DNA of 64,000 bases from Mycobacterium sp. BK086 (GTDB taxonomy: Bacteria; Actinomycetota; Actinomycetes; Mycobacteriales; Mycobacteriaceae). The DNA lies in contig SNWL01000005.1 in assembly GCA_004362315.1 (NCBI GenBank), positions 248,001-312,000 on the forward strand. Direction: 5' to 3'. Below are positions 26,914 through 47,716 of the stretch, piece after piece. A model generated the notes under the pieces. The model made no database searches. It saw nothing but the letters and a program-made list of their open reading frames with translations, and was not told the origin of the DNA. Every line of letters begins with the position of its first letter. The first letter of the stretch is position 1. The position numbers and the translations under genes were made by a program.

Positions 26914-26999
26914 TGTCCGAGGGGGGACTTGAACCCCCACGCCCGTTAATAGGGCACTAGCACCTCAAGCTAGCGCGTCTGCCATTCCGCCACTCGGAC
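26914..26999 (-). tRNA. tRNA-Leu (anticodon GAG)
   Basis: The minus strand folds as an 86-base cloverleaf with a long class II variable arm. The acceptor stem GTCCGAG pairs with CTCGGAC, with discriminator A at 26914. The anticodon loop CTTGAGG puts GAG at 26966-26964, reading CUC/CUU Leu codons. The T arm is GGGGG-TTCAAGT-CCCCC. CCA is not encoded. It lies just after the methyltransferase gene on the opposite strand. Confidence 0.97.
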
Positions 27000-43675: not shown

Positions 43676-43681
43676 GAGTTC

Positions 43682-43687
43682 AGCGTA
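43682..43687 (-). promoter_or_regulatory. Candidate -10 element of the PAC2 gene (leaderless)
   Basis: On the minus strand, TACGCT fits TANNNT and is followed by exactly 6 bases before GTG 43675. No Shine-Dalgarno is present, so the mRNA probably starts at the initiation codon. Confidence 0.45.
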
Positions 43688-43855
43688 AGGGGTGATCGGC
43701 CGCGATGAGCCTTCTCGGACCGACTACGGCCCCGGCGTGTGACGGCCGGTGTCGGCCCCGCGCGCAGGCTGCCACGGGTCGTGGCGAAATACGTTCGGCG
43801 GCAATCTCGTTAATCTCGGTAACTACACTGCGGTCGCGTCGGCGGGGTGACGACG

Positions 43856-43861
43856 TAGACT
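43856..43861 (+). promoter_or_regulatory. Candidate -10 element of metH
   Basis: TAGACT fits the mycobacterial TANNNT -10 consensus. Transcription would start about 7 bases on, at roughly 43868. That is the very base before the outermost P1 pair of the predicted riboswitch, so the aptamer would form the 5' end of the mRNA. No convincing -35 is seen. Confidence 0.5.
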
Positions 43862-43868
43862 TTTCACC

Positions 43869-43928
43869 GTCGAGAGGCGTTGCAACGGGTCTGGGGACCC
43901 GCCACGCTCGGCAGAGTCAAGGACGCCT
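43869..43928 (+). promoter_or_regulatory. Predicted S-adenosylhomocysteine (SAH) riboswitch aptamer of metH
   Basis: The leader folds as an SAH-type aptamer. P1 pairs GTCGAG (43869-43874) with CTCGGC (43907-43912), including one wobble. The inner hairpin pairs CGGGTC (43886-43891) with GACCCG (43896-43901) over a TGGG loop. The pseudoknot pairs AGGCGT (43875-43880) with ACGCCT (43923-43928). The conserved single-stranded TGCAA (43881-43885) follows the 5' pseudoknot strand, and CCACG precedes CTCG where the usual aptamer has CCAGG. SAH switches activate SAH-recycling genes such as metH. The assignment rests on remembered consensus and manual folding. Confidence 0.72.
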
Positions 43929-43944
43929 TCCGTCATACGGAAGG
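43926..43944 (+). promoter_or_regulatory. RBS-sequestering hairpin (expression platform) of metH
   Basis: CCTTCCGT (43926-43933) and ACGGAAGG (43937-43944) form a perfect 8-bp stem with a CAT loop. The 3' strand is the metH Shine-Dalgarno, which ends 6-7 bases before GTG 43952. The 5' strand shares 43926-43928 with the 3' pseudoknot strand of the aptamer, so the two structures exclude each other. Ligand binding would hold CCT in the pseudoknot and free the ribosome binding site: a translational ON switch. Confidence 0.7.
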
Positions 43945-43951
43945 AATGTGT

Positions 43952-47697
<3,746 letters not shown>

Positions 47698-47716
<19 letters not shown>

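Follow-up and report, generated by a model that had tools for sequence, protein, structure and literature searches.

The metH leader of mycobacteria looks like an SAH-class riboswitch predicted to act at the Shine-Dalgarno sequence

Introduction

Riboswitches of the SAH class are reportedly the subject of Wang et al. 2008 and Edwards et al. 2010, and we take PDB 3NPQ to be a structure of one of them. In the available text of two papers the class is credited with ~1000-fold selectivity for SAH over SAM (PMC7057144, PMC7367207), and in the first of these with raising ahcY expression (PMC7057144). According to a 2013 survey, SAH riboswitches "were also identified in Mycobacteriaceae" (PMC3766115). 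They belong to the same class and the same bacterial family as the element described here; the accessible portion of the survey leaves their target gene and mechanism unnamed, and its main text contains neither metH nor "methionine synthase". A 2014 paper, in the part available, gives metH as an SAH riboswitch target in Comamonadaceae (PMC4239095), the same class and the same gene in Pseudomonadota, where metH is a taxon-specific target. As described in the accessible text of two sources, the SAM/SAH riboswitch (RF01727) is likewise a small pseudoknot that senses SAH and acts at the Shine-Dalgarno (SD) sequence, but it has another fold, belongs to metK in Rhodobacterales, is an OFF switch and hides the SD sequence with the pseudoknot itself (PMC7367207, PMC2864571).

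The term "SAH" is absent from the available text of a 2025 review of B12 in M. tuberculosis that discusses the metE riboswitch (PMC12713380) and from that of PMC8088520, and it counts 0 in the accessible parts of an M. avium RNA survey listing SAM-IV and ykoK (PMC3774663) and of a mycobacterial RNA review listing SAM-IV, TPP and ykoK (PMC4109619). In the open-licence literature searched we found no paper naming metH as a mycobacterial SAH target. An earlier note on this DNA knew of no described mycobacterial metH example. As a hint of novelty this goes too far, since the class is already on record in Mycobacteriaceae (PMC3766115). The class is known, including in mycobacteria; the reach of the element described below is not seen in the literature above.

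Here we analyze the metH leader in a 64,000-nt stretch of DNA from Mycobacterium sp. BK086 (the window). Judged by sequence comparison, this leader resembles the RNA switches of the known SAH-sensing class. The methylation by-product SAH thereby becomes a specific candidate regulator, open to experiment, for the B12-dependent methionine synthase of most sampled mycobacteria.

Results

The metH leader (43856-43954, plus strand) carries all of its elements in a fixed order, from a -10-like box to a GTG start codon (Table 1). The coordinates given in the earlier note for the stems, the pseudoknot, UGCAA, the 8-bp hairpin and the -10 box all proved right. The conserved metH start is the GTG at 43952-43954 and not the ATG at 43946, which is unconserved in the alignment. 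We compared 85 unique leaders with a GGCGUUGC core, all from the window's own genus except L083, L087 and L228 and referred to below as mycobacterial-type leaders. In 84 of them an in-frame RTG lies 6 to 8 nt after GGAAGG, and the remaining one has GTG at 3 and at 9 nt. An adjacency check found MetH directly downstream on the same strand in all 85. Beyond metH in the window lies a PAC2-family gene (Pfam) on the opposite strand. Elsewhere in the window, a tRNA gene at 26914-26999 on the minus strand is the sole Rfam gathering-level match.

Table 1. Elements of the metH leader, in window coordinates
Feature	Position	Strand	Remarks
-10 promoter box TAGACT	43856-43861	+	RNA start predicted at, or immediately upstream of, the first pair of P1
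SAH-class aptamer (Rfam RF01057 match)	43866-43935	+	36.3 bits, E 2.2e-5
P1 5' strand	43869-43874	+	Pairs with 43907-43912; 6 pairs, one U-G
Pseudoknot 5' strand (AGGCGU)	43875-43880	+	Pairs with 43923-43928; 6 Watson-Crick pairs
UGCAA core	43881-43885	+	U, G and C invariant in 140/140, partly imposed by search patterns
P2 hairpin	43886-43901	+	Arms 43886-43891 and 43896-43901; 3/5 counted pairs change on both sides
Junction CCACG	43902-43906	+	C43905 in place of Rfam consensus G (CCAGG)
P1 3' strand	43907-43912	+	Pairs with 43869-43874; covariation
G at consensus C position (C46 of solved structure)	43921	+	G in 140/140; consensus CAACGG
Pseudoknot 3' strand (ACGCCU)	43923-43928	+	Last 3 nt also begin the SD hairpin
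SD-sequestering hairpin (predicted expression platform)	43926-43944	+	Arms 43926-43933 and 43937-43944, 8 bp; -10.7 kcal/mol alone
metH Shine-Dalgarno GGAAGGA	43939-43945	+	GGAAGG kept in 85/85 leaders
metH, cobalamin-dependent methionine synthase, GTG start	43952-47716	+	Pfam Met_synt_B12, S-methyl_trans, Pterin_bind, B12-binding

The earlier note had proposed a search with Rfam RF01057. Scanning 43680-44000, we found that this family does match the aptamer, slightly below its cut-off (36.3 bits versus a gathering score of 37), so that scanning the window at gathering level does not report it. The remaining two matches in the scan were to a microRNA family and a lncRNA family (E 2 and 8.1). 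Mycobacterial metE is governed by a cobalamin riboswitch of the RF00174 type; no match to RF00174 was found in 43680-44000 up to E 10. In two tests, 3/20 and 5/19 actinomycete loci passed the RF01057 cut-off, and a Burkholderia glumae control passed it at 55.2 bits. At this cut-off most of the tested actinomycete loci go unseen. Two covariance models of our own, both built with the window sequence included, scored the window element at 97.3 bits (R1) and 71.1 bits (R2). Among 20,000 dinucleotide shuffles of 43862-43951, an 8-bp hairpin alone arose in 187, and one sharing 3 nt of its 5' arm with a 6-bp pseudoknot arose in none. The minimum-energy fold, in which the pseudoknot 5' strand pairs otherwise, is only mildly stable relative to shuffles (z -1.82), so folding energy is no evidence for the aptamer.

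Loci for a covariation analysis came from a pattern scan of named genomes, which gave at least 120 actinomycete loci, and from a search of the order with R1 at E 0.01, which found the element in 113 of 397 genomes and 26 of 85 genera; 60 places outside the window's genus were fetched for the set. One order-level match (L264) was false and was dropped. The 287 loci reduced to 258 unique elements, and 140 were aligned. Of these, 29 were of mycobacterial type, the window's own among them; the order search supplied most of a second group of 57, and the remaining 54 were drawn from the 116 pattern-scan elements. An over-long element (L169) was left out.

Across these 140 sequences, P1, P2 and the pseudoknot together were paired in 93.0% of cells, compared with 85.8% in shuffles and 26 to 42% when the pairing was slid. 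Eleven of 20 pairs had changed on both sides (P1, 6/9; P2, 3/5; pseudoknot, 2/6). Such compensatory changes among relatives, which the earlier note had suggested looking for, are thus present in all three helices. The pseudoknot alone was paired in 99.3% of cells; its last pair is C-G in 107 sequences and U-A in 30, and elsewhere one A-U stands for G-C. Three outer P1 pairs that are unformed in the window were unpaired in 56, 62 and 36 of the 140. The invariance of the core and junction is partly by construction, because the search pattern and the extraction script fixed those letters.

In all 85 mycobacterial-type leaders the final 3 nt of the pseudoknot strand also belong to the 5' arm of a hairpin with 5 bp or more (6 to 8 bp in this group), and the same holds for 166 of the other 173 leaders. 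The sharing of 43926-43928 between pseudoknot and ribosome-binding-site hairpin that the earlier note described is therefore kept in 85/85, and in every one of these leaders GGAAGG lies at most 25 nt from the pseudoknot. By a crude rule, under which at least one call (L114) is doubtful, 16 of the 173 other leaders have a terminator-like hairpin instead. One and the same pseudoknot strand thus appears to work with either type of platform.

We modeled the switch by blocking the pseudoknot strands in a nearest-neighbor model, which leaves out the pseudoknot's own energy. The unpaired fraction of the SD sequence rose from 0.00 to 0.67 in the window; over the 85 mycobacterial-type leaders the median openness went from 0.002 to 0.618, with a rise of more than 0.2 in 83. 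Taken as isolated helices, the pseudoknot is worth -8.3 kcal/mol versus -10.7 kcal/mol for the SD hairpin. The shortfall would have to be made up by ligand binding, in keeping with an ON switch. The two structures had been proposed to be mutually exclusive. They do overlap physically, but the pseudoknot takes just the lower three hairpin pairs, and the other 5 bp of the SD hairpin could therefore persist in the window.

TANNNT ends 6 to 7 nt before P1 in 85/85 mycobacterial-type leaders, compared with 133 of 1,020 control windows. This fixed spacing of a -10-like box is in line with the proposal that TAGACT places the RNA start at the edge of the aptamer. In the other 173 leaders TANNNT occurs near P1 in 118, at a spacing of 3 to 14 nt, versus 29 of 2,075 control windows.

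RF01057 itself matched 9 of 118 genomes of the genus, none of them above the cut-off, in a search whose filters lose weak matches and which therefore under-detects the element. We rejected the patchy presence that this count suggested, since the element follows metH type. R1, a model made from 36 leaders of the genus (which match it by construction), found the element in 174 of 198 genus genomes, with one match each. When the same 198 genomes were searched with the N terminus of the window's metH, 192 had a match and 6 had none; the matches were strong in 173 (E <1e-60), partial in 1 (G139, 4.8e-52) and weak in 18 (~1e-35 to 1e-38). Unlike the taxon-specific Comamonadaceae metH switch, as presented in the available text of PMC4239095, the element accompanies this metH type in 173 of the 173 genomes with a strong match. 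One genome, G112, has the element, and metH was not recovered there by the N-terminus search. R1 did not find the element in any of the 18 genomes with a weak (divergent) match. The element and metH lists were matched by eye, with the negatives G167, G183, G186 and G191 identified by elimination.

Searching the other 25 genomes for Met_synt_B12 gave a match in 21: divergent in the 18, good in G139 and G059, and partial in G008. In this search the domain was not found in G005, G089, G112 and G167. The element was not found in G139, G059 and G008, which are fragmented assemblies (360 to 640 contigs) with partial metH evidence. Within the genus, sequence conservation of the element in the alignment is very high. 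The SAH riboswitch class is far more widespread in mycobacteria and related bacteria than the standard cut-off shows.

In 8 of the 18 divergent metH leaders (L333-L340, inspected by eye), a TANNCT-like -10 box ends 6 to 7 nt before the GTG in all eight, and the mRNA of these eight should therefore be leaderless. To judge from this spacing, metH is apparently expressed there from a leaderless mRNA without a riboswitch. A diverged element hidden in these eight leaders was considered and rejected, the best score from R2 without filters being 11.3 bits (E 0.35); nor was there any Rfam gathering-level match in them. A PAC2-like gene still adjoins the divergent metH on the opposite strand. Because this neighbor has been retained, metH seems to have been exchanged in place. 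A riboswitch with one metH type and an apparently leaderless mRNA with the other make a natural experiment on the loss of this control. M. tuberculosis MetH (~1192 amino acids) is of a length similar to the divergent type and may belong to it.

We assigned downstream genes by similarity to six representative proteins. Among the matches listed, the 117 unique pattern loci were followed by MetH (63), AhcY (36), MOSC (5), adenosine deaminase (4), MFS (1) or none of these (8), so that MetH or AhcY lay downstream in 99. For 69 other loci (L213-L287, some from the window's genus) the counts were MetH 42, AhcY 18, MOSC 5, methyltransferase 1 and none 3, with MetH or AhcY in 60. Over the class, R2 found the element in 74 of 394 genomes and 17 of 137 genera; a 149-genome sample of the phylum gave 5 matches, from two genera of the window's own family. 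B. glumae was the one Pseudomonadota member obtained for comparison. A phage search returned a single 21-nt match (E 1).

Several downstream genes fell outside the main pair. One of the three unassigned among the 69 loci, L282, has an SAH-type element upstream of metK; in Proteobacteria, according to the available text of one survey, SAH riboswitches do not control metK (PMC4239095). Adenosine deaminase-like genes of one protein cluster follow the element at L093, L115, L189 and L202 (Pfam on L093), and such an enzyme would clear away the second product released when SAH is hydrolyzed. MOSC-domain genes, recognized by eye at L099, L166, L171, L186, L207, L252, L276 and L277 (Pfam on L186), have no obvious link to SAH. 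A methyltransferase-domain gene lies downstream in Nocardia carnea (L129, with the same leader in L092), and by eye the gene at L261 has a similar start. No downstream protein was recognized at L107, L198, L208 and L281, where the reading frames look spurious. One genome of another family (G586, f14) has two elements, a mycobacterium-like one with the GGCGUUGC core at metH (L228) and a second of the actinomycete type (L268).

Placed on the solved SAH riboswitch, G43882 is presumably G15, C43883 C16 and A43904 A29. The equivalents of all three are kept in 140/140 sequences, although the search patterns and the extraction script dictated some of these letters. In the available text of a simulation paper, these nucleotides and C46 surround the ligand (PMC7057144). 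In all 140 actinomycete sequences consensus C46 is replaced by G and consensus G30 by C, the junction letters again being partly script-imposed, and B. glumae retains both consensus letters. Relatives with the same G and C pass the Rfam cut-off (for example L235, at 46 bits), so these letters do not define the family.

Discussion

The metH leader shares with the RF01057 SAH riboswitch its P1, P2 and pseudoknot, UGCAA, the A of the CCA junction, an association with SAM-cycle genes and a predicted ON direction. It is unlike RF01057 in scoring slightly below the cut-off, in having G at C46 and C at G30, and in occurring as one match per genome of its genus. Our preferred reading, which we hold to be very likely, is a riboswitch of the SAH class (RF01057 type) whose expression platform acts on translation and through which SAH turns metH on. 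The element, its parts and the outline of this mechanism had been recognized correctly in the earlier note. That SAH is the ligand, that the switch works in the ON direction and that control is translational we infer from the architecture and its conservation.

The 5' edge of P1 would also be the 5' end of the RNA. As long as no ligand is bound, CCUUCC (43926-43931) would pair with the SD sequence GGAAGG and keep metH translation low. SAH would bind beside the pseudoknot, allowing AGGCGU to pair with ACGCCU; by taking the lower three pairs of the SD hairpin, the pseudoknot would open the SD sequence, and MetH would be made. MetH could then recycle homocysteine from SAH breakdown to methionine. 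The gene is thus probably switched on as the methylation by-product SAH accumulates. In the window's own genome (G000, listed as 100% complete) neither the MetE N-terminal domain PF08267 nor, at E 0.001, an RF00174 match was found. As that MetE domain was not found, MetH may be the sole methionine synthase of this genome.

The pocket leaves room for another ligand. Either the C46 and G30 positions pair and have inverted together, or ligand recognition has shifted. With an unchanged gene context, joint inversion is in our view the more likely of the two: exchanging G/C for C/G at both sites may do no more than turn a tertiary pair around. That the actinomycete lineage uses the same fold to recognize something close to SAH would explain why G and C replace C46 and G30 in 140/140 sequences against the Rfam consensus and B. 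glumae. We nevertheless regard it as unlikely, given that the downstream genes, ahcY included, are still mostly those of the SAM/SAH cycle, that G15, C16 and A29 are kept, and that related loci with this same G and C score above the Rfam cut-off. A broader proposal, which we entertain only tentatively, is of an actinomycete-wide lineage with an inverted tertiary pocket pair (C46/G30 to G/C), a wider regulon, two interchangeable platforms and possibly a shifted ligand selectivity. Its regulon would take in metH, ahcY, adenosine deaminase, MOSC proteins, metK and a methyltransferase, and both platforms would share the same pseudoknot strand.

The pseudoknot and the hairpin could also be real but respond to a protein or to temperature instead of a small molecule, and the hairpin alone would indeed brake translation. 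Such a switch does not account for near-invariant core nucleotides outside the helices, for the RF01057 match, or for the same aptamer preceding terminator-like hairpins in some other genera, and we think it very improbable. Still less probable, to the point of being scarcely credible, is a conserved DNA element such as an operator. It would suit the very high sequence conservation within the genus, but compensatory changes in three helices, the pseudoknot among them, and the constant distance to a conserved -10-like box upstream speak for RNA. An SAH-responsive translational switch remains the reading that we prefer.

Outside the actinomycetes, the 23-kb B. glumae plasmid pBGF2 (NC_010879.1; L288) bears an SAH riboswitch with ahcY beside flhG and fliA.
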